Positions 10,278 through 59,720 of a stretch of 63,710 bases of DNA are shown here, piece after piece. Below the pieces are notes generated by a model. That model had not been told where the DNA came from, searched no databases, and was given only the letters and a program-made list of their open reading frames with translations. Where the stretch lies: positions 1 through 63,710 of the forward strand of contig JAUNTM010000004.1 in NCBI GenBank assembly GCA_030538675.1, given 5' to 3'. The DNA comes from Capnocytophaga sp. (GTDB taxonomy: Bacteria; Bacteroidota; Bacteroidia; Flavobacteriales; Flavobacteriaceae). Position numbers and translations under genes: made by a program. Positions within the stretch are counted from its first letter, which is position 1; every line of letters starts with the position of its first letter.

Positions 10278-13200
10278 TTAAAATCCAAAGCCAAATCCGA
10301 TGGCAAACCGTGCTCCTTCGTTCGTGCCGAATAGCGAGGCGTTGAGCGTCATCATGTTCATTCCGTTGATAAATACGCCACCACCATACGAATTTGCCCA
10401 GCGGTCGGTCGGGTCAAAGTCTGTCCACACCCTGCCGAAATCAAATCCGCCGTAAATTCCGTACGAAAACGGTATGACTCTTGAGTTGAAACTGCCAATC
10501 TGCCAACGCAAATCGGTAGTCTGCGTAAAGGCGTACTGCCCCGCAAAGCGTTCGTTACGATAACCGCGAAGCCCTTTGCTTGCTCCGATATTTGCCATTT
10601 GGTAAAATTCTACGTCTTCCGAGCTGTTGATTTGCCCTTGCCACAACACACCGAACACCACATCGCCGCCGGCATTGAGCCGTTGCGAAAAGCCCAATTT
10701 CGGATTGATATAAAAATAATTGCGTCCGCCACGGTCGATATTGGCGGTATAGCCCGCTTCCAGTTCGGCGGTTAGGGCGAGTGTCGGGAATGCCTTATTG
10801 TCGCTGATGTCATACGCAAATTTGGAATGCACTCCGGCAAACCGCTGGCTCGTGAACGATGCCGGGTCAATCTGCGATGAAATGCCCACGAAGCGGTCGG
10901 GTGTACGGTCGGTTTTGATATTTTGAAACTGCAATCCGAGCGTAACATATTGTCCGTAAAATCCGTTCCATTTGAGTGACGGACGGAAACGGTATTCTTC
11001 CACCAGCGTCCGGTAATAACTGAAATCCAATGACTTATCATACGCCGAACTCATACCGTATCCGAAGAAATTCGAACTGTAAAAAGGGCTTCGGTACCGT
11101 ATGTCCAACACCAGATTGGCATTGCCTGCCACACGGGCAAACTCGCCTGTGTAGCCTGCCTCAACTCCCGCAGTTGCCGTAAGGAATTTGGCATGAATGC
11201 GGTGCCGTTGCGTAAACGGATTTTGTACAAACTTGTTAATGGTATAGGTAAGCTGGGGACCTATCATCACGCCGTTATCGGGATTGTAGCCCAATGCCGG
11301 AATGGCGGAAATCAAGCGGCTGTATTTCGGAAGTTTGTAATCGTAATTGTTGATTTTATAATTATCCGTCAGATGTTTTGTGCCTTTTTTCGTTTCAAAA
11401 GTACTTTCTTTGGATTTGTAATCGTAAATGATTACTTTTTTTCCGTTTTCTATCCGATAGGTATCTTTGTTTTGTCCGCCGATAAGCCTCAGTTTTATGG
11501 ATGTTTTACCGTTGCCCGTAACCTCAAAAACGTCTTTGTCGTCCAATCCGTAGAGCCATATTTCGGCAGTATCTCCGGGGTGGAATTTTTTGTGGTGGTA
11601 ATTGCGTTGTTTTTCTCCTTGGATAATCCGGTATACGGACACATCGGTCGTGCCGTCGCCATTGCGTACGATTTCAAAATAATCGTCTTTGTCCGTACCT
11701 GTGATAACGGATATTTTATTGACAATATGAAAATATTCCATGCCGTATTTTGGCAGATTATCACGCCTTGCCTTCATTACCGAAATGATTTTCTGCATGG
11801 TTTCATCTCTCGCTTCGGGTGGAAAATTCTCGGTAATGGCACGTTCGATGACGGCATCGGTGAGGTTTTGGCGGATAAATGCTATTTCGTTTTCCCAATC
11901 GGTGCGGGTCATGTCGGGCAGAAATGCCACATCGAGCGGATACGGCTCTACGTTGAACCATTTGATGCTTCTCGGTTCGGCTTCAAACCGTTGCATGAGC
12001 CGCAAATCGGGAATGGCAGCCGTGAGGAAACCCATCAGCCAGCCGTCGGCCATATTGGAAAAAACTTGGTCGCGGTCACGCGGAAAGGCTTGGTACAGTT
12101 CGCCTTCGCCATTCTTAATAACCGCCCAACGCCATTGGTCTTGATGCCTGTCCCAATCGCCCAAAACCATATCAAAAAGCCTTGCCCGGAGATAGGCTTT
12201 TTGGTCTACTTTATTCTTGTCGGATTCTTGAATTTTTCTGAAAACATCGGTCGTGCTGATGACTTTGTCCGCATTGGCGAAACTTTCCAAATCGCCGTGT
12301 CCGTCCGTTGCTTTTTCTTCTATCATGTACAATCCTCCGCCGAATACATTGTTAAATTTGCCCAACGATTTCTGTTTTTCCACGTACACCAATTTCGGAT
12401 TGGTATGCAAAATCCCCAATGCGTCCGACATATCGGCGGTGGTAAACGGAGCAAACGGATGCGACCCCGTGAACACGTCCATCAGCAATTCTTCTACTTT
12501 CGTATTTTGAAACGAATCGCCCATATATTGGTTTTTGAAAGCAAATGCCTGTATGTACTGCGTGGCACTTTTTTGCAGCGAACGCATCACGTATTCTTTC
12601 CCTTCCGGATTTTTCAGATGAAGCGACAACGATTGGTTGCCCCCGCCTTTGCGGACAGGCTCAAGTCCGCCCAAATAATTTTCGAGATTCACGGCAGGTG
12701 CCGCAATGTCCATACCGAAATAACGGCGGTAACGCTTGCCCCAACGCTCTTGGTATTTGTCCGATTTGTCAAGAAAACGGTCGGGATATATTTTGGCTTT
12801 GACCGTATCGGCAACGGTAATAAATTCCGTGTAAACGGTATTGTCCAAGGGTTCGAATATCGTTGCCGTGAAGATTGGTTGCTTCGTATCACTGCTGTAA
12901 AACCGCACTACCGAACTGCCGTCGGCAAGCACGTCCAATCGGGCAAATCCCAAGTCGGAACTGCTGAATTGGCTTCCGTTGGTCAATCGGGTTGCCGACT
13001 GCTTCGCTCCTGCCCCGCTGATGATTTGGGTGATGCTGTTCTTTTGGATAAACTGCTGGCTGTGGTCATGCCCCGAAAGGAAAATAACACGGTCGTTAAA
13101 CTGCGAATATGCCGACAAATGCTCGATGAAATCATTGTACATTTTGTTCTGCATATCGGCATTGCTCACACCGCCCGTCTTACGGATGGCGTTCTTGAGC

Positions 13201-13952
13201 GTTCCGAGTACGGGCAACGGCAAAAAATGGCTTTTGGCATCGTACTGACCGCCGTGAGCACCATCGCTGAGCATCGGGTGGTGTACGGCTATCAACGTGG
13301 TTTTGCCTACCGCTTTTTTGATTTCGCTGCTTACTTCGTCCCAAAAATCAGCCCTTGTTTTGATGACACAATCGTCATTCATCGTGGGGTGCTTGTCCCA
13401 ATTGGTGATGTACCACTGCGAATCAATCACTAATAATACAATGTCATTCCCGATTTTGACACGCTGTATGGGGCAACCGTTTTTCGGCAGAAACGAATTT
13501 TTGCCCAACGCATCTTCCACGAATTTTTGCTGGTCTTTGAGTCCTTTAAGCCCCGAATACCAATCGTGGTTGCCCGGAATAAAGATGGCATTGCCTGCAA
13601 AATTTCGGGCGGCGTCTATTTGGTTTTGTAAAATAGTCTCTTTGGCTTTTCGGTCGGGATGCTTTTTGTCGGACATGCCTTTTTCGTAAATATTATCGCC
13701 CAGAAAAAGCAGCGTACTATTTTTCCCTACGGAAGATGCCTCATCCGCCAAATGCCCGAGTACGCGTTCTTGCGTTTGTGCCAAACCTGCATCGCCGACA
13801 AGGAAAAACGTATGCCGTATGTCCGAGGGTTGTATTTTTATTTCTTCAAAAGAATGATTGCCAGTATATTGCGTTTGATATGTTGCACAGCCCGCTACTG
13901 CCGTACAGAGCCAAAACAAACGAAAAACCGTAGTAAAATGATTTTTTCTCAT
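10278..13952 (-). CDS. Lipoprotein: metallophosphoesterase, kinase-like segment and BamA-like barrel
   Basis: A very large protein (1224 residues) with a lipobox ending at C22 (AVAGC). The calcineurin-like phosphoesterase domain spans about 47-360, with all metal motifs: GDAG 53-56, GDN 85-87, GNHD 127-130, HH 224-225 and GHDH 294-297. Residues about 435-740 form a second domain with LGDWDRHQDQW (GDWDRH at 598-603) and PRDRDQVF (624-631). These resemble the DRH catalytic loop and metal-binding Asp of Fam20/CotH-type kinases; that resemblance is by eye only. Residues about 748-850 look like a beta-rich linker with GLDDKDVFEVTG. From about 880 on the sequence alternates like a BamA/TamA-type outer-membrane barrel and ends in FGFGF. 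Phosphoesterase-barrel fusions occur in Bacteroidota; substrates are unknown. Confidence 0.85.
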   Translation of the reverse strand: MRKNHFTTVFRLFWLCTAVAGCATYQTQYTGNHSFEEIKIQPSDIRHTFFLVGDAGLAQTQERVLGHLADEASSVGKNSTLLFLGDNIYEKGMSDKKHPDRKAKETILQNQIDAARNFAGNAIFIPGNHDWYSGLKGLKDQQKFVEDALGKNSFLPKNGCPIQRVKIGNDIVLLVIDSQWYITNWDKHPTMNDDCVIKTRADFWDEVSSEIKKAVGKTTLIAVHHPMLSDGAHGGQYDAKSHFLPLPVLGTLKNAIRKTGGVSNADMQNKMYNDFIEHLSAYSQFNDRVIFLSGHDHSQQFIQKNSITQIISGAGAKQSATRLTNGSQFSSSDLGFARLDVLADGSSVVRFYSSDTKQPIFTATIFEPLDNTVYTEFITVADTVKAKIYPDRFLDKSDKYQERWGKRYRRYFGMDIAAPAVNLENYLGGLEPVRKGGGNQSLSLHLKNPEGKEYVMRSLQKSATQYIQAFAFKNQYMGDSFQNTKVEELLMDVFTGSHPFAPFTTADMSDALGILHTNPKLVYVEKQKSLGKFNNVFGGGLYMIEEKATDGHGDLESFANADKVISTTDVFRKIQESDKNKVDQKAYLRARLFDMVLGDWDRHQDQWRWAVIKNGEGELYQAFPRDRDQVFSNMADGWLMGFLTAAIPDLRLMQRFEAEPRSIKWFNVEPYPLDVAFLPDMTRTDWENEIAFIRQNLTDAVIERAITENFPPEARDETMQKIISVMKARRDNLPKYGMEYFHIVNKISVITGTDKDDYFEIVRNGDGTTDVSVYRIIQGEKQRNYHHKKFHPGDTAEIWLYGLDDKDVFEVTGNGKTSIKLRLIGGQNKDTYRIENGKKVIIYDYKSKESTFETKKGTKHLTDNYKINNYDYKLPKYSRLISAIPALGYNPDNGVMIGPQLTYTINKFVQNPFTQRHRIHAKFLTATAGVEAGYTGEFARVAGNANLVLDIRYRSPFYSSNFFGYGMSSAYDKSLDFSYYRTLVEEYRFRPSLKWNGFYGQYVTLGLQFQNIKTDRTPDRFVGISSQIDPASFTSQRFAGVHSKFAYDISDNKAFPTLALTAELEAGYTANIDRGGRNYFYINPKLGFSQRLNAGGDVVFGVLWQGQINSSEDVEFYQMANIGASKGLRGYRNERFAGQYAFTQTTDLRWQIGSFNSRVIPFSYGIYGGFDFGRVWTDFDPTDRWANSYGGGVFINGMNMMTLNASLFGTNEGARFAIGFGFGF

Positions 13953-48140: not shown

Positions 48141-51100
48141 TTACTTCAACTGCTCCAAAATGGTCGGGTCTTTGAGGTCTTTGTCATTGGCAAGCATCAG
48201 TATTTTCGACATAATTTCCGCCGATTTTGGGTCTTCATCTACAAACGGTAGGAATAACCGCCCCCGATGTTGCGAATGTACCGGCAAGATATACAGGCTT
48301 TTACCCGGACGAAGATGTGTTACGCCGCTTCCCAAATGTACGCTATACTCGGCACGGCTTCCGTTGATGAGAGCGTGGTGCCCTTGCAGTTGCACGTTCG
48401 TAAGTTTGAAAAGTTGCAACGTCTCCCGAATGATTGCCGACCGCAACTCAATACTCGACTGGCTGGCTTCGGGGTCAACACCGCCCACGTGGGCTACGCT
48501 GACTACCAAATCCAAATCACGCATTACTTCACTGAAAATCAACGGGTTAATTTCTTTAAAAGGAATGCCTTTGTAATTTTCCCTGCTGATAAATTCCACC
48601 GTTTCCAAGGTCGGGCTTTCCACGTCGGCAGGCGAAAACCAATCCGCCATAGCGTAAATTTTGGCAATAAATCCTTCTTTGTGGAAAACTTTTTGCAAGC
48701 CTTCTTCATAATCTGCTTTCCAGCCTCGCGACTTGAGCAATGCCACTGTTTTTTGCGGCTGCACTTGGTGTCCGGCGTAGCGTTTCGATACCGTTACGGC
48801 TTCGAGTTCATCGGCAGTAGGAACATATAACTCTCTGAAAATCTGCTTGAAAGGCTGTATTATTTTTTCGGTAAAACAATAATGTTGATAGGCTTGCCAT
48901 TGTCCCGATGCGTACAAATCGCAACAGTGGGCAATGCGGATTTCACCCTTGATTTCTGCCGAAGCTCCGTTGGGATTGACCAGTTTTCCGTCAAGGAAAA
49001 ATCCGGATGAGATACCGTCGGTCAGCACTAATTTTTTGAGCATCGGTGCGATGACGGGGTGCGACATCAGCAGCATGAGTTCGTCTTTCAGAAAGGCATC
49101 GCCCCGAACCATCGCTTCTTCCAATGATTTGCGGCTGCGGCTGTATTGTTTTTTCAAGCGTGAATGAAAATCTTTGAGTTGGACAACGGCTTTTTCGCTG
49201 TTGAGTTTCGGCGGAATGCTTTTCAGTTTTTTGCCGTTGCTGTGTGTTACTATTTCCGATTTTCCTTGTTCATCTATCTGTAATTCAACGGTATATTCAT
49301 CAAAAGTCAATACTTCGGAATTGGCGAGAATGGTTTTGGCTTCTTCGGTTTCCATAGCCCACGTAAGCCGAATCGGGTCGGGGTAGCCTGCCGTGAAAGC
49401 GAGGTTGTCCATCGCAATTTCAACCGCCAATTTTTCGCTTGCCTGCCGTTGTGCGCCAAACTGTTTGCTTTCATTGGCAAATTCTAACAAATAATTATAG
49501 CGGTTCAGCACATCTTTTTGCGGTGCTGTTTTGCTTAGCGGCACCAGCCCGTACACACGTACGTAATCTTGGTTTCGTTTTTCTTTCACGCGTTGGGCAA
49601 CTTCACGGATTTTGGTTTCGCCTGTCATCACATCGGCGTAGAGCTTGGCACGGCTGTGTCCCGTTCCTTCCGAGATATATTTGGCGGCATCATAAAGCAG
49701 TTTCCAACGCTGTTTTCCGATTGCCGAATACGCCTGTTGAAACCAATGATAATCCACCACGCCGTCGGAAAATTGCCGTATACTGATGTTGGAAAACTGA
49801 GCGATTTCACTTTCCGTTTCCGCCGAATGATAGCTGTTCGTATGTGCGTGAAGCCACCACACGGCACTACCCAATCCTTTCCAATTCAAATAGTTCTGCA
49901 CGAAAGGAAGCCACTGCGGTGCGTACATTGCCACCTCGATAAGCCGTTGTTCTGTAATGCCGGCTTCGTTGATTTTTTCGGCAAAAACGGCATCGGTGTC
50001 GTCCGTGGAAGGATAACAACATTTTAACAATTTGCTGAGGATTTCTTTTTTGCTGTACGTTCGTTCGCCATACGCATAAACATAGCCGCGATTGAGCGTA
50101 TCATTGCCCAATCCGTTGAGGATTTGCAGTAAAACATGGATGCCGTACACCGACTGCAAATGCCCTGCAAACCGGGTTACAGGCGTACTGCTGTCGCCCC
50201 GCTTGAGCTCGATTTCAAGGATTCGGTTGCGGACTTTTTCCGTCCAACCGGCAAGGAACGGATATTCGGCAAACAGCCGTTCTTGTTCCTTTTTGTTATG
50301 TTTGTAACGGCTGTCGGCGGTCAATATCCGCAGGACGTTATCATCACTAAAAAACTGCTGCATCAGTTCGTCATCGGTACACAGCCCCATTTTGTGCGCT
50401 TTCAGATATTCTCCAAAAGAAATTTTGCGGGAATTTTCGTAATCCGCAGGTATATTTTGTTCTGTAAAGCGCCATAAGTGCCACTTTTTCGTAAATTTTT
50501 CTACATTATCATCCAGATGCAAAGTGATGCAACTGTAATAAAAATTACTCAAAACACTCAATTCAAAAACAACATACGTTTGCACATAATAGTCGGATTT
50601 GATTTCGGCAACTTTATGCAGCTCTCTTTCATCTATCTGACTTACAGCATATTGCCAACCATCGAGTAGGTATTCCGCCTTTTTGTCATACGGATACAGG
50701 TCGCCGAGCAGCCTGATGATGTTCAGGGTGCTACTGGCAACAGCTCTGTTTTCATTTCCCGGGAATGGCACTCTCGGAAACAGGGTCTTGGTTTTGGCAT
50801 GTGTTTTTGGGAAAAGTTTCTCTTTTTCGTCGTCTGCACTTCCGGAATAATAAAAATCGTAATTCCACGAAAGCCCGAGCAAGAAAAGGTCAAAAACCGT
50901 AAGCCCCGATGTTTTGTACCAATTTTCCCACACATCGGGAAGCGGATGGTTTTCAAAAATTTCTCGCGGACTGTATTTTTTTTCGGGGTCGTTCTGCCTT
51001 TCTTTTCCCATGAAAACGTTCCCCAACAGCACTTTTTCCACCGAACCGTCCCAATTTTCCGATTCGTATTCGTAATCTCGGTACTGCCAGATGAGGTCTT

Positions 51101-53228
51101 GCAATTTTTTAATTTTTAGCAATAATTCCTTTTCAGAAATTGAAAATCCGTATTTATTTTTGGCATTTACCACATTTTCATAAAACACACCCGATGTTGG
51201 TTTTTCGGGTTTTCCGTACACGGTTTTATTTTCAGGATTGTACAACCCAAAACCGTTTGACGCGTCATATTGCGGTGCGTTGCTTTGTAATATCTTGTCA
51301 ATCAGAATTTTCTCTTTGCTATTCAATTTTCGGTTTTCCTGAAAATCCGTAGCAATGGCTTGTGCTTGGCGCTGGTTTTCTTTTTCTTGATTGAGAAAAT
51401 CGAGCAAATCCAATCCTGCCAACCGCTGTTCGGCTTGTGCGGACGACAGCAACCGCCCTGCACTCTCAAAAATCTGCGAAACGCTTCGTTTTTGAATGGT
51501 TTCCAACACAAACTGACGGAAATCCGATGATTTTCGTTTGAGCATTTCTTCAAAAATCAAAATTTCGCTGTCGCTGATTTCCGATTTTTTCAGCACGTTC
51601 ATCGCTGCCGAACGGATGTACGACGAGCGGTCGGAAATAATTTGCAAAGCAAAATCACGTTGCACTACCGTCGGTACGGCTTCTTTATCTTGCGAATACG
51701 GCAAGAAACCGCGCAGCATTTTCCGTACCAAAGATTCACGATTTTCAATTGGTAAAAATTCGTAATATTTTAACATTCTAATGCGTTCATCTGCATCGTC
51801 AAAATCTGCAAAATCAAGCATCGCCGAAGCAATTAGCTTTTTGGAATAAGTGTATTGCAACCACGAAAACACCTTGCCTTTTGTTATGATTTCCTTTTCG
51901 GGGAATGCCTCATAGAGTGTCTCCAAGCGGTCGATAATTTCCGCAGGATTTGCAAAACAACTTCGGGAAGGAAGCAAAATCACGCCCCAATAATGCACCG
52001 CTGGCACCGTATCGAACAAGGCTTTTTCTACAAAATATTGTTTCCATTCGGTTATATTTGTCTGATTTACAAAGTATAAAACCAGTATTTTCTTTTCGGT
52101 ATTTCCTTTTTCGTAAAGCGTTTTCAATATCGGGAAACAGACATCAACATCGTGTACGCCCTGCCCCCAGAGTGCCATATACAACTCGGCATTGTCGGGA
52201 CTTGAAAGCATACCGTTCAGCAGCGAAGGTGTGGTTACGTATTTTTCTGCCAATTCGGCAAACCGCTTGACGGTGCTTTGCTTTTCGGCGCCCCACGCAA
52301 AACCAGCCCAAACATCCATCGCTCTGACAACAGACGAAAATCGGGTTAAATTTTCAGAATTTATTAGCTGTAACATATATTGAAATGCTCCTACGGAAGT
52401 TTCGTCAAGGCTTTCAAGAATGGTCTGCCGAAGCCCTTCCTGCCGCTGTGCCGCCAACAGCAAATTCCCGACTTGTTGCCACGCAGGCTGGTAATCCGTC
52501 AGTAATAACGACTTGATGAGCAACCTCGACACGTGTCCGTTTTCGGCATTTCCTTGCAGAATGTCGCATGCCAATTGGTACAGTTTTGGGTCGTTCTCAA
52601 GGGCAGCTGCCACAAGCAGTTCGCATCCGCCAAGAGCGACATCATATTGCAAACATTCCGCCAGCGTAAACGGATGCACACTGTAAGCGTTTATTAATTC
52701 TATGAAAAAATTAATTTGCAGCAATTGCCCTGTAAGCTCATCATTCGGACGGCGGAACGAACGGCGGTAATAGCCTTTTTGGTACATCAGTTGCGGGGCT
52801 TTTTCCCACGCTTTTTTGACCAAAGGGGCATCATTTTTCCCGAAAACCAGCACCAAAAGGTCGTAATGCTCGCCGTCCCAAAGATGTTCGATATCGAAAT
52901 GCTGTTGAAAAACAGGTAATCGTTTGCTGCCGGGATACACGGTGTCGGCACAGTTATAATATTCGGAATCGGCATAATCGGGATAACAGTTGAGGAACAG
53001 AAGCCCCAACTCGGCAGTTTTTTTCGAGAGGCGGAACGTTTTTTCTTTTGACCCGAAAATTTTTCCGAGTATATTTTGGGGTTCGCCTGACATTTCGGGA
53101 GGAAACGCATTGAATCGCAACAGTTTACTCAAATCGGGTGTTTTTCCGTCTTGAATGTCGTACAGAATACCGTGCAACGCTCGCGGCTGCTCGTAATCCA
53201 TTTTTTTGTCGATGTCGTCTTGGAGCAT
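48141..53228 (-). CDS. DUF4132 (MolR/YehI-like) giant protein
   Basis: A protein of about 1695 residues when started at the ATG at 53228 (MLQDDIDKKMDYEQPRAL...). The open frame continues 42 codons upstream, but those codons are the translated G-rich repeat and should be left out. The first two thirds look like alpha-helical HEAT/ARM-type repeats. The C-terminal third is the DUF4132 domain, recognised from LTWAMETEEAKTILANSEV, the KSIPPKLN and LEEAMVRGDAFLKDELMLLM segments, and SKRYAGHQVQPQKTVALLKS. The extreme end FVDEDPKSAEIMSKILMLAN is also typical. In E. coli the DUF4132 proteins YehI/MolR lie next to a MoxR-type ATPase and a VWA protein; no such genes are here. Only the small gene at 53344-53760 accompanies it. 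Biochemical function is unknown. Confidence 0.85.
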   Translation of the reverse strand: MLQDDIDKKMDYEQPRALHGILYDIQDGKTPDLSKLLRFNAFPPEMSGEPQNILGKIFGSKEKTFRLSKKTAELGLLFLNCYPDYADSEYYNCADTVYPGSKRLPVFQQHFDIEHLWDGEHYDLLVLVFGKNDAPLVKKAWEKAPQLMYQKGYYRRSFRRPNDELTGQLLQINFFIELINAYSVHPFTLAECLQYDVALGGCELLVAAALENDPKLYQLACDILQGNAENGHVSRLLIKSLLLTDYQPAWQQVGNLLLAAQRQEGLRQTILESLDETSVGAFQYMLQLINSENLTRFSSVVRAMDVWAGFAWGAEKQSTVKRFAELAEKYVTTPSLLNGMLSSPDNAELYMALWGQGVHDVDVCFPILKTLYEKGNTEKKILVLYFVNQTNITEWKQYFVEKALFDTVPAVHYWGVILLPSRSCFANPAEIIDRLETLYEAFPEKEIITKGKVFSWLQYTYSKKLIASAMLDFADFDDADERIRMLKYYEFLPIENRESLVRKMLRGFLPYSQDKEAVPTVVQRDFALQIISDRSSYIRSAAMNVLKKSEISDSEILIFEEMLKRKSSDFRQFVLETIQKRSVSQIFESAGRLLSSAQAEQRLAGLDLLDFLNQEKENQRQAQAIATDFQENRKLNSKEKILIDKILQSNAPQYDASNGFGLYNPENKTVYGKPEKPTSGVFYENVVNAKNKYGFSISEKELLLKIKKLQDLIWQYRDYEYESENWDGSVEKVLLGNVFMGKERQNDPEKKYSPREIFENHPLPDVWENWYKTSGLTVFDLFLLGLSWNYDFYYSGSADDEKEKLFPKTHAKTKTLFPRVPFPGNENRAVASSTLNIIRLLGDLYPYDKKAEYLLDGWQYAVSQIDERELHKVAEIKSDYYVQTYVVFELSVLSNFYYSCITLHLDDNVEKFTKKWHLWRFTEQNIPADYENSRKISFGEYLKAHKMGLCTDDELMQQFFSDDNVLRILTADSRYKHNKKEQERLFAEYPFLAGWTEKVRNRILEIELKRGDSSTPVTRFAGHLQSVYGIHVLLQILNGLGNDTLNRGYVYAYGERTYSKKEILSKLLKCCYPSTDDTDAVFAEKINEAGITEQRLIEVAMYAPQWLPFVQNYLNWKGLGSAVWWLHAHTNSYHSAETESEIAQFSNISIRQFSDGVVDYHWFQQAYSAIGKQRWKLLYDAAKYISEGTGHSRAKLYADVMTGETKIREVAQRVKEKRNQDYVRVYGLVPLSKTAPQKDVLNRYNYLLEFANESKQFGAQRQASEKLAVEIAMDNLAFTAGYPDPIRLTWAMETEEAKTILANSEVLTFDEYTVELQIDEQGKSEIVTHSNGKKLKSIPPKLNSEKAVVQLKDFHSRLKKQYSRSRKSLEEAMVRGDAFLKDELMLLMSHPVIAPMLKKLVLTDGISSGFFLDGKLVNPNGASAEIKGEIRIAHCCDLYASGQWQAYQHYCFTEKIIQPFKQIFRELYVPTADELEAVTVSKRYAGHQVQPQKTVALLKSRGWKADYEEGLQKVFHKEGFIAKIYAMADWFSPADVESPTLETVEFISRENYKGIPFKEINPLIFSEVMRDLDLVVSVAHVGGVDPEASQSSIELRSAIIRETLQLFKLTNVQLQGHHALINGSRAEYSVHLGSGVTHLRPGKSLYILPVHSQHRGRLFLPFVDEDPKSAEIMSKILMLANDKDLKDPTILEQLK

Positions 53229-53340
53229 GAGGGTAGGTTTTAGGGGGTTAGGTTTAGGGGGGCAGGGGATAGCGGATAGGGGATAGTAAATGAAAAGTTC
53301 GGAAAGCCACTGTTCGCTATCCGCTATCCGCTCCCCCCTA
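53229..53340. repeat. G-rich hairpin repeat, copy B, against the DUF4132 start codon
   Basis: Begins one base from the ATG of the DUF4132 gene. It has TAGGTTTTAGGGGGTTAGG, then GGGGATAGCGGATAGGGGAT, a spacer of about 28 bases, and the inverted arm CGCTATCCGCTATCCGCT before CCCCCC. It fills the gap to the small partner gene and forms a stem of AGCGGATAG/CTATCCGCT units. It creates a false 42-codon extension of the DUF4132 frame. Other copies are at 10177-10272 and 63636-63710. Confidence 0.8.
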
Positions 53341-53343
53341 CTT

Positions 53344-53760
53344 TCACCTTCCACTAAGAAAGGTAAGCCTTACAAAGGTAAAAATACTTTCGGGATTGGG
53401 ATTGATTTTTTCTGACAGATTTTCGAGCGGTTTTTCGTCCATAAAAACGCAGAAAAGACCGTCTTTGAAGGCTAACAATGCGTTTTCAACGGCTTTTTCT
53501 TCAACGGCTTTTTCGGGATTGTGAACGCTTCCGAAACCGATTTTCCCCGAATGGGAAAGCGTTTCAATATCCGAATTTGTCAAAAAAGGAATGATAGCAC
53601 TACTTTCCGTCCGCTTATTGAAGGCGGTTACTTGCTGCTTTACAATATTGGTAATCAACTCTTTGAGTGTATTTTCTTTCAAATCGGCAATTTCCAACGC
53701 TTGTGTAGCAACGGCGGGCTTTTTCTTTCCTAATTGTTTTACGTTTACTTGTATCTGCAT
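53344..53760 (-). CDS. Small conserved-looking protein paired with DUF4132
   Basis: A 138-residue protein when started at the ATG at 53760 (MQIQVNVKQLGKKKPAVATQ...). The frame is open upstream to 53856, but a TATATTTG -7 box lies inside that part (53781-53788, minus strand), so the shorter form is right. The first 50 residues (a beta strand, then LEIADLKENTLKELITNIVK) have the order of a beta-grasp, ubiquitin-like start, which is only a fold guess. A central KIGFGSVHNPEKAVEEKAVENALLAFKDGLFCVFMDEK segment and the hydrophobic end FTFVRLTFLSGR look conserved. I believe similar small proteins neighbour DUF4132 genes elsewhere, but this was not checked. It is the first gene of a two-gene unit. Confidence 0.75.
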   Translation of the reverse strand: MQIQVNVKQLGKKKPAVATQALEIADLKENTLKELITNIVKQQVTAFNKRTESSAIIPFLTNSDIETLSHSGKIGFGSVHNPEKAVEEKAVENALLAFKDGLFCVFMDEKPLENLSEKINPNPESIFTFVRLTFLSGR

Positions 53761-57185: not shown

Positions 57186-59720
57186 TTAAAATTGTTGTCC
57201 AAATATAAAATGAGTCTGCCATCCGCTAGGTCCTGTACGCCCGATTTGGTTGTCAAATCCGTAACCGAAATCAATTCCCAACATACCGAATGCCGGCATG
57301 AAAATCCGCATTCCCAATCCTGCCGAGCGCTTGAGTTCAAACGGATTATAGCGTGAAAATCCTGAGTACGCATTTCCGCCTTCGGCAAATACCAATCCGT
57401 AGATAGATGCCATCGGTTTGAGCGTGATAGGATAGCGGAGTTCAAGTGAAAATTTATTGAATATCGCATCCCCGTCCGATGATGAAAGGGATTGGTTTTC
57501 GTATCCGCGCAGCTGTATATTCTCACGTCCGTCAAGTGCGTAATACGCAAGTCCGTCTCCTCCGACAAAGAATCGCTCAAAGGGAACTAATCCTCTATCG
57601 CCGTTATACGCTCCCAAATAACCGAAATCGGCTGCCGTTTTCAACACAAACTTATCGAACAAATTGGTGTACCATGTGCCACTGGCTTTGAGTTTGTAGA
57701 ACTCCAACCAATTGAATCGCTGTTGGTCTATCGTGGCAATCGCATCTGCATCATTATTGCTTACTGCGGTGGCTCGCTCTGCCATGAGTGCTTTATAGTC
57801 CGTATTATTGAACAATGAATATGGCGGTGTGAGTTTGGCACTAATATTAAAATTACTTCCCGTCATCGGGTAAATAGGGTTCGGACCGCTGGAATTGCGT
57901 GTCAATCCGATGGTATAGGTAAGTGAGTTGGAATGTCCATCTCCAAAGGTAAACAGACCTGTGTTATAGTTCTTCAGGTTATAGTGCTGAAATCCGAGTG
58001 TATGCGAAATCTGGAAATAATCATCCGGAACTCTCAATCGCTTGGCGAGCCCCAACATAATTCCCGAAATAAGAAAACGACGACTTCTATCTACATTATA
58101 GGTATACGCATTGTAGCTGTATTGTTCTGTACGGGAGAGTGATACCGAGAACTGTACCGGCTGTTTGCCTCCCATCCAAGGTTCTGAAAATGAGAAACTG
58201 TACGTTCTGTAATAGCGGCTGGCTTGAAGTCTCAACGCCAAACTCTGCCCATCGCCCATCGGCACGGGTGTATAAGCTTCTTTATTGAATATATTACGGA
58301 TTGAAAAATTGTTAAATGACAACCCGAGTGTTCCGATGAAGCTACCACCACCGTAACCGCCCTGCAATTCTATTTGGCTCGAGCCTGTTTCGGCTACTTG
58401 GTATTCAATATCCACTGTTCCTGCGTTGGGGTCGGCATTTTTGAATTCGGGATTGATATTTTGTGCGTCAAAAAATCCCATTTGGCTCAACTCCCTTACG
58501 GTACGTACTACGGCATCTTTGGTGTACAGATATCCGGGGCGCGTACGCAACTCACGATAGATGACATGGTCATTGGTTTTTTCGTTTCCTACTACCGAAA
58601 TATTATTAAAATATGCGGGTTTTCCTTCCACTACTCTTATCTCAAAATTAATCGTATCGTTGACTACCGATGTTTCGACAGGCATGATGCGTGAGAACAA
58701 ATAACCGCTGTTTTGGTATAAATTGGTAATGTCTTCCGCATCGGGTTTTGAGGCATCGGCAATACGTTTTTTGAGCAATACCCCATTGTATACATCGCCC
58801 TTTTTTATTCCCAGAACCTGATTTAAAATGCGGTCGTTATACACCGAATTTCCTAAGAAACGAATATCTCCAAAATAATACCTGTCGCCTTCTTCTACAT
58901 TGATATTGAGGCTTATACGTCCGTCATTGTTATATATCAGAGTGTCATTAACCACACGTGCATCGCGGTAGCCGTTTTCTTTATAAAAATCAATAAGCGA
59001 CACGAGGTCTTCGGTATAGTCATTCGCTACGTATTTGGAGCGTTTCCAGAAACGCCCGAGTATACGTTGCTTCGTTTTTTTGAGTTTGCTACGCAGCTTC
59101 GCATCGGTATATTTTTCATTCCCTCCAAACGTTATTTTGTCTATCTTTACCTTATCCCCTTGGTCGATATGCACAAGCATTTTCACACCGTTAGCATCGG
59201 TTGTATCTACCTTAGTATCAATGGTTACTTTGGCATTTAGATAGCCTTCCTTACGATATTTGTTGACGAGGTAATTACGCGTATTGGCGATAAAACTTTC
59301 ATTGACTTTTGCTCCTTTTTTGAGTTCGGCATCTTTGATAATTCCTTCGGCTTTCTTGGCTCTGATGCCTGTAATGGTAACATCGGTCAACGAAGGTATC
59401 TCCCGGATTGCCAATTCGAGAAATGCCGTATTTCCTTCGGTACGGGTAATGTATATATTGACATCACTGAAGAGCTTATAGCTCCAGAGTTTATGGATAA
59501 TATTACTGAATTTTTCTCCCGGAATGGTTATTTCGTCGCCTACTTTGAGCCCTGAAGTAGTCAAAATAGTCTGCTCATTATATCGTTTGGCTCCGGTTAC
59601 TTCAATCCCACCGATGGTATATTTTCTCCCTTGTTCGAGCGATAGTCTTTCTTCTTCCTGAGCACTTACTACACTTACTACCGCAAATAATACGATGGAT
59701 AAAAATCTTTTCAAAGTCAT
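57186..59720 (-). CDS. bamA: Outer-membrane protein assembly factor BamA
   Basis: BamA is the essential barrel that inserts proteins into the outer membrane. The 844-residue protein has a signal peptide (MTLKRFLSIVLFAVVSVVSA), a series of POTRA domains to about residue 430 (first one IGGIEVTGAKRYNEQTILTTSGL), and a C-terminal 16-strand barrel with the conserved VRGY-type loop as IQLRGYENQSLS. It ends with TGPSGWQTHFIFGQQF, the terminal aromatic signal. The start is three bases after uppS. Length and arrangement are normal. It heads the two ompH genes. Confidence 0.97.
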   Translation of the reverse strand: MTLKRFLSIVLFAVVSVVSAQEEERLSLEQGRKYTIGGIEVTGAKRYNEQTILTTSGLKVGDEITIPGEKFSNIIHKLWSYKLFSDVNIYITRTEGNTAFLELAIREIPSLTDVTITGIRAKKAEGIIKDAELKKGAKVNESFIANTRNYLVNKYRKEGYLNAKVTIDTKVDTTDANGVKMLVHIDQGDKVKIDKITFGGNEKYTDAKLRSKLKKTKQRILGRFWKRSKYVANDYTEDLVSLIDFYKENGYRDARVVNDTLIYNNDGRISLNINVEEGDRYYFGDIRFLGNSVYNDRILNQVLGIKKGDVYNGVLLKKRIADASKPDAEDITNLYQNSGYLFSRIMPVETSVVNDTINFEIRVVEGKPAYFNNISVVGNEKTNDHVIYRELRTRPGYLYTKDAVVRTVRELSQMGFFDAQNINPEFKNADPNAGTVDIEYQVAETGSSQIELQGGYGGGSFIGTLGLSFNNFSIRNIFNKEAYTPVPMGDGQSLALRLQASRYYRTYSFSFSEPWMGGKQPVQFSVSLSRTEQYSYNAYTYNVDRSRRFLISGIMLGLAKRLRVPDDYFQISHTLGFQHYNLKNYNTGLFTFGDGHSNSLTYTIGLTRNSSGPNPIYPMTGSNFNISAKLTPPYSLFNNTDYKALMAERATAVSNNDADAIATIDQQRFNWLEFYKLKASGTWYTNLFDKFVLKTAADFGYLGAYNGDRGLVPFERFFVGGDGLAYYALDGRENIQLRGYENQSLSSSDGDAIFNKFSLELRYPITLKPMASIYGLVFAEGGNAYSGFSRYNPFELKRSAGLGMRIFMPAFGMLGIDFGYGFDNQIGRTGPSGWQTHFIFGQQF

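Follow-up and report, generated by a model that had tools for sequence, protein, structure and literature searches.

The window analyzed here, 63,710 nucleotides of Capnocytophaga sp. DNA (contig JAUNTM010000004.1), encodes a putative outer-membrane lipoprotein in which a purple-acid-phosphatase-like metallophosphoesterase (MPE) is followed by a middle domain (KIN), a linker domain (REP) and an Omp85/BamA-type barrel (BAR). The middle domain is probably an atypical protein-kinase-like (PKL) domain of the CotH/Fam20/HipA type and a putative phosphotransfer enzyme. This reading draws on the conservation and joint loss of its motifs, a remote similarity to CotH and a confident predicted structure with its elements in kinase order. 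Fusions of a phosphatase with an Omp85 barrel have been described before, and what is new here is the kinase-like third part; literature searches, which covered open-licence papers alone and are no proof of absence, returned no description of the KIN domain. The open reading frame and the motifs named in an initial annotation of the window, complete calcineurin motifs among them, are real and stand at the residues given there, and the barrel that it proposed is supported by the family profile.

Conservation and joint loss of the KIN motifs

Relatives of the protein were collected from named genomes (the best 80 of 475 confirmed stretches) and further genomes were searched too, in a sample that leans towards Flavobacteriaceae on account of the named genomes. 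With the middle domain alone as query, 112 of the 296 sampled genomes of the phylum gave a match, among them the window's own genome; a few of these matches are partial or weak. The fetched part of these matches and the window together hold 224 KIN domains, of which 221 are distinct, and all conservation counts refer to these 221 Bacteroidota domains, the window's included.

The initial annotation had made its kinase proposal dependent on the conservation of the DRH and DRD residues, found in the window protein within DWDRH (599-603) and RDRD (625-628). Both motifs are near-invariant, with Asp601 kept in 209, His603 in 205, Asp626 in 211 and Asp628 in 209 domains, so the proposal is not refuted and the motifs do not reflect chance. 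The other sites are also well kept, both in the N-terminal part (Gly436 209, Gly437 211, Arg457 209, Lys461 214, Glu545 213) and around the candidate catalytic loop and beyond it (Arg591 219, Asp594 219, Asp599 217, Gln/Asn606 215, Trp607 217, Trp609 217, Gly637 221).

Of the 19 sites tested, no fewer than three are changed in each of fourteen members, and 10 of these members have lost at least one residue in each of Gly436/437, Arg457, DRH and DRD, while all 14 retain Arg591 and Gly637. Alignment gaps were scored as losses here, and L140, L141 and L142 are gapped in some or all N-lobe sites. For Arg457 and Asp626/628, 208 domains retain both, 12 have lost both and one is mixed; the corresponding figures for Asp601 and Asp626/628 are 204, 8 and 9. 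Fisher values for this joint loss overstate the case, as the sequences are related. A tree of 121 rows from which the tested columns were excluded requires at least four events for the loss of DRD. Among the four independent pairs DRH changes together with DRD in a mean of 4.0, Arg457 does so in 3.9 and the Gly-rich loop in 3.4, never in the opposite direction.

Of the 166 phosphatase-fused domains, the window's among them, 164 retain every one of seven active-site positions, compared with 40 of the 55 others. This comparison bears on whether KIN could be a catalytically dead binding or scaffold domain, leaving the phosphatase to work alone, e.g. in phosphate scavenging. Phosphatase-less relatives that have lost the Gly loop, Arg457, DRH and DRD yet keep Arg591 and Gly637 would fit such a role, as would the two phosphatase-fused exceptions (L267 and L272), which have Gly at position 601. 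However, the window protein and nearly all of its phosphatase-fused relatives keep every site, a degree of conservation that would be difficult to account for if KIN neither catalysed a reaction nor bound a ligand, and we regard a dead domain as unlikely. The motif-losing members that lack the phosphatase and keep the barrel, of KIN-REP-barrel or KIN-barrel type (L136-L142, L153, L156 and L276-L279), are themselves likely pseudokinases.

Predicted structure of the KIN domain

An AlphaFold2 model of residues 385-760, computed on an alignment (A1) of 93 sequences, has a mean predicted local distance difference test score of 96.8 and a predicted template modelling score of 0.94; 366 of the 376 residues reach at least 90 and none falls below 70. 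The listed elements start with three strands (431-436, 443-447 and 453-458), the Gly-rich loop following the first and Arg457 lying within the third. They are followed by helices 463-470, 485-494 and 501-512, strand 520-524, helix 528-537, strand 540-546 with Glu545 near its end, and helices 567-576 and 584-597. Loop 598-606, which carries GDWDRHQDQ, leads into strands 607-613 and 618-624, RDRD and a mostly helical C-terminal part.

This succession agrees with the kinase order of three N-lobe strands, helix C, strands 4 and 5, helices D and E, catalytic loop and strands 7 and 8; helix 463-470 after strand 3 and helix 528-537 between strands 4 and 5 are additional. The conserved motifs fall, in the model, at the places of the nucleotide loop, strand 3, the hinge, the catalytic loop and DFG. 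Asp601 and Gln606 have the D-x4-N spacing of a catalytic Asp and a metal-binding Asn/Gln, and Asp626/Asp628 directly follow predicted strand 8, where a DFG-equivalent Asp would be expected. The kinase-like fold is thus proposed on a confidently predicted order of secondary structure together with profile similarity.

Comparison with known kinase families

Single-sequence searches of Pfam and NCBIfam gave no name for residues 395-745, nor did a single-sequence search of the PDB name the middle domain, and the KIN profile matched PDB sequences at noise level (best E 0.3). We compared profiles with hhalign, using the 93-sequence KIN alignment and 30 CotH domains of this phylum after trimming, as well as usable HipA domains from 28 of 30 loci and APH domains from 27 of 30. 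KIN and CotH scored 38.0 (probability 41%), with GDWDRH paired with GNWDNY and PRDRDQAF with the consensus segment PYDYDNTFG/PWDxDxxFG. The score is about equal to the 37.9 obtained for CotH against HipA, which are both listed in the Pfam PKinase clan (PMC9758233). KIN scored 25.1 with HipA and 22.8 with APH. Fourteen reversed, column-shuffled or other-domain controls reached at most 19.2 against CotH and 16.2 against HipA, and for 24 neighbouring-gene families the highest scores were 25.1 against CotH, 21.2 against HipA and 29.4 against KIN. By eye, the control family scoring 25.1 against CotH looks SelO-like, and SelO is presumably a kinase fold itself. No relation to APH is claimed, its score being below the best KIN control, and a KIN-REP score of 40.7 was set aside as an artefact, since both alignments contain residues 746-760.

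It is very unlikely that KIN is unrelated to kinases and has a different hydrolase or binding fold, its DRH and DRD motifs being coincidental. The missing Pfam match for the window's middle domain and the noise against PDB sequences would be in keeping with such a fold, but the order of elements and placement of motifs in the AlphaFold2 model, and a CotH profile match that exceeds every control run, argue against it.

KIN resembles CotH (PF08757) in the aligned catalytic loop and D-x-D motif and in a Trp near the active site, and differs in the lack of a family-level match, an unaligned N-lobe and its joining to a phosphatase and a barrel. CotH is described as similar to Fam20C, as keeping equivalents of PKA D166, N171 and D184, and as having its adenine sandwiched by a Tyr and a Trp (PMC12189002). 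The near-invariant Trp607 and Trp609 beside the KIN loop are suggestive of this adenine-sandwiching Trp by analogy. With Fam20C (PF06702), which works outside the cytosol, KIN shares what we take to be the DRH catalytic loop of that family. A hidden Markov model scan of the 296 genomes for Fam20C gave two sub-cut-off matches (E ~5e-4), both inside KIN domains; in L158 the match spans residues 581-655 and ends on the DRH loop (DWDRH at 650-654). These matches may be a hint of kinase kinship, although KIN stays below the cut-off and there is no full-length alignment. HipA (PF07804), a cytosolic toxin, has a D-x4-N/Q catalytic loop at the aligned position, and differs in that its match to KIN is weak.

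Several observations weigh against assigning KIN to the kinases. The KIN-CotH probability is modest and the aligned part is the C-lobe alone; with untrimmed CotH alignments the probability drops to 7% and 0.2%, so that the result depends on trimming. The HipA score lies below KIN's own best control, and any relation to HipA is claimed as a weak one, from profile similarity. Of the 93 aligned KIN members, HipA_C (PF07804) touches three (best E 0.2, short of significance), CotH one (E 0.013, the window domain being unmatched) and Fam20C one (E 7e-4); the HipA_C and CotH models have no match in genome G000, and the Fam20C model passes its cut-off in none of the 296 genomes. The two sub-cut-off Fam20C matches belong to a single genus, and the chance expectation is about 0.3 matches (E 1e-3, 296 genomes). 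The tree provides just four independent losses, for which a sign test gives p 0.125 at best and cannot reach significance. The conserved residue of strand 3 is Arg457 and not the usual Lys, which in protein kinases forms a salt bridge with the Glu of helix C; Lys461 comes just after the strand. Finally, ATP is, to our knowledge, not known in the periplasm, and the phosphate donor is for this reason the weak point of a kinase assignment. The atypical kinase of the initial annotation is largely upheld as a distinct and confidently modelled domain with kinase-like order, active-site motifs and a CotH similarity above all controls run, and falls short where the cut-offs of the named families are concerned.

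Phosphatase, barrel and membrane attachment

The layout of the protein is given in Table 1. Pfam Metallophos matches the phosphatase part with 32.3 bits (cut-off 21.5). Its motifs are VGDAG from residue 52, GDNIY at 85, GNHDW at 127, HHPM at 224 and GHDH at 294, and the metal-ligand motifs GDAG, GDNxY, GNHD, H and GHxH are kept in 65 full-length rows, making up the complete dinuclear metal-ligand set of purple acid phosphatases. A full-length profile of these 65 relatives matched purple acid phosphatases among solved structures (best E 2.5e-11, 1war), and its C-terminal part matched BamA 4k3c (best E 1.6e-8). The window protein alone has no Omp85 match in Pfam and scores 50.7 bits with the NCBIfam Omp85 model (cut-off 200), so that the barrel assignment rests on the family profile. 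The conserved LRGYRNERF fits what we take to be the Omp85 loop-6 signature, (V/I/L)RG(F/Y). The likeness to purple acid phosphatase/TRAP lies in the metal-ligand motifs, whereas the window protein is lipid-anchored and joined to KIN and a barrel.

Table 1 Features of the gene and its product in the window
Feature	Residues	Position	Strand	Basis or remark
Whole gene	1224 residues, ATG start	10278..13952	minus	Open reading frame
Signal peptide and lipobox, Cys22	1-22	13887..13952	minus	Sequence; family alignment
MPE, purple-acid-phosphatase-like metallophosphoesterase domain	45-365	12858..13820	minus	Pfam; family profile
KIN, kinase-like middle domain	395-745	11718..12770	minus	Alignment, profile comparison, AlphaFold2 model
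Gly-rich loop GGGNQS	436-441	12630..12647	minus	Between model strands 1 and 2
MRSLQK	456-461	12570..12587	minus	Arg457 in model strand 3, Lys461 just past the strand
Glu545 (hinge position)	545	12318..12320	minus	Close to end of model strand 540-546; kept 213/221
DWDRHQDQW, candidate catalytic loop	599-607	12132..12158	minus	Asp601, then Gln606 five residues later
PRDRDQVF, candidate metal-binding	624-631	12060..12083	minus	Right after model strand 618-624
REP, linker domain with repeated Asp-rich motifs	746-870	11343..11717	minus	
BAR, Omp85/BamA-type barrel	871-1224	10281..11342	minus	Family profile
LRGYRNERF, barrel end	1128-1136	10545..10571	minus	Conserved in family alignment

With a PF00149 domain N-terminal to an Omp85 barrel and no POTRA domain found, the whole window protein resembles the 'Metallo' subfamily of Omp85 proteins, under which PF00149-Omp85 fusions were grouped by Heinz and Lithgow 2014 (PMC4104836). 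Those authors label PF00149 a metalloprotease; the sections of their paper at hand describe no middle domain, and a text search of the paper returns no occurrence of 'kinase'. A second BamA-like protein, with POTRA domains, is encoded at 57186-59720, so the fusion protein is not the cell's ordinary BamA.

The lipobox near the N-terminus is AVAGC, with Cys22 as the predicted lipid-anchor residue, and C-A-T at 22-24 is conserved in 90% or more of the rows of a 120-row alignment, which contains the window twice and some repeated sequences. An automatic lipobox count (103 of 165 full fusions) was discarded in favour of this alignment column, as it relied on guessed start codons. The lipid anchor does not decide between periplasm and surface. 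Since Omp85 barrels have their N-terminus on the periplasmic side, the phosphatase and KIN more likely both sit in the periplasm, and the 'surface' lipoprotein of the initial annotation is not borne out.

Three Asp-rich motifs, GTDKDDYF, GLDDKDVF and GGQNKDTY, lie in residues 752-832 of REP (window 11457-11699); they are conserved in the family and recall RTX calcium repeats.

Architectures and split loci

Most of the 221 distinct domains occur in phosphatase-KIN-REP-barrel proteins (165), the remainder in KIN-REP-barrel (40), KIN-REP (8), KIN alone (5), KIN-barrel (2) and phosphatase-KIN-REP (1) forms. The last, in Flavobacterium luminosum (L071:5998-8358), has a frame that stops after REP while its tblastn match continues through the barrel, owing to either a frameshift or an assembly error. 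In L129 (4629-8594) and L130 (1841-5793) KIN-REP, the phosphatase and the barrel are encoded by three consecutive genes on one strand, at most about 20 bases apart. By eye, this trio lies downstream of ABC-exporter-like genes, with one gene intervening in L130, and is followed by an mgtE-like gene. As a natural split of the fusion, these loci suggest that phosphatase, KIN and barrel work together.

Stand-alone KIN begins with a hydrophobic stretch. The N-termini of KIN proteins mostly show a signal peptide, lipobox or anchor (by eye and uncounted, with starts that are not curated), the two KIN-barrel members being unclear in this respect. On this basis KIN seems to work on the outside of the cytosol. 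L127 has two KIN-REP genes side by side and L128 three, as a local expansion, and one copy in each has Ser in place of Asp601.

Proposed function

KIN would be held at the outer membrane between the lipid-anchored purple-acid-phosphatase-like domain and the Omp85 barrel, likely on the periplasmic side. A nucleotide may be bound under the Gly-rich loop with Arg457/Lys461, Asp601 (with Gln606) would act as catalytic base and metal ligand, and Asp626/Asp628 would serve as DFG-like metal ligands. The phosphate, or another nucleotide-derived group, would be passed to an envelope substrate, and the neighbouring phosphatase may act on related phospho-substrates, the two enzymes perhaps sharing one substrate pool.

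It is possible, if somewhat doubtful, that a KIN domain with a kinase fold moves AMP or a different group, or has a small molecule or a lipid as its target, as is the case in other divergent PKL families. The sequence itself does not reveal the substrate or the chemistry, and the periplasmic site is awkward for ordinary ATP-dependent protein phosphorylation. Four novel families clustering with FAM20/CotH have been suggested to phosphorylate lipids (PMC9758233). In contrast, nothing specific favours AMP, and the comparison of neighbouring genes yielded no substrate.

If phosphotransfer by KIN, the reading we prefer, is true, phosphate may be both attached and removed by a single envelope protein. 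Activity outside the cytosol would raise the question of regulated envelope phosphorylation in Bacteroidota and of the source of the phosphate donor, for a domain that is widespread in the phylum yet unnamed in Pfam and NCBIfam. The fusion and the split loci L129 and L130 point to KIN, phosphatase and barrel as partners. As a tentative picture, the Bacteroidota might possess a widespread outer-membrane machine in which a previously undescribed extracytoplasmic kinase family and a purple acid phosphatase on a lipid-anchored barrel write and erase envelope phosphate, with degenerate paralogues serving as pseudokinases. Such a machine would parallel, in bacteria, the Fam20 kinases of the secretory pathway and would call for a nucleotide or phosphate donor in the periplasm.

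Occurrence and gene neighbourhood

Within the genus, the gene gave a match in the window's own genome and in none of the 19 others searched. By identity, the closest relatives among the best 80 of 475 stretches are in Profundicola chukchiensis and Flavobacteriaceae bacterium Ap0902 (59-60%). A neighbouring MltG-like gene is shared with congeners at up to 70% identity, on which ground contamination of the contig was rejected. The patchy distribution within the genus possibly reflects lateral gain or (multiple) loss. Five plasmid records, from Hymenobacter, Persicobacter and Parabacteroides, have a KIN match.

In 81 neighbourhoods of the full fusion the conserved neighbours revealed no functional link and no substrate, and look like plain synteny. 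Of the 81, 24 have a SelO-like gene (by eye) close to the fusion, some of them together with msrA/msrB-like genes; this representative of another kinase-fold family is probably plain synteny as well. In one genome, a true CotH-family gene lies about 1.5 kb from a KIN gene (G057:C15:16534-20000, within L257). Elsewhere in the window, 48141-53354 encodes a 1737-residue protein composed of DUF5724, DUF4132 and DUF7737.

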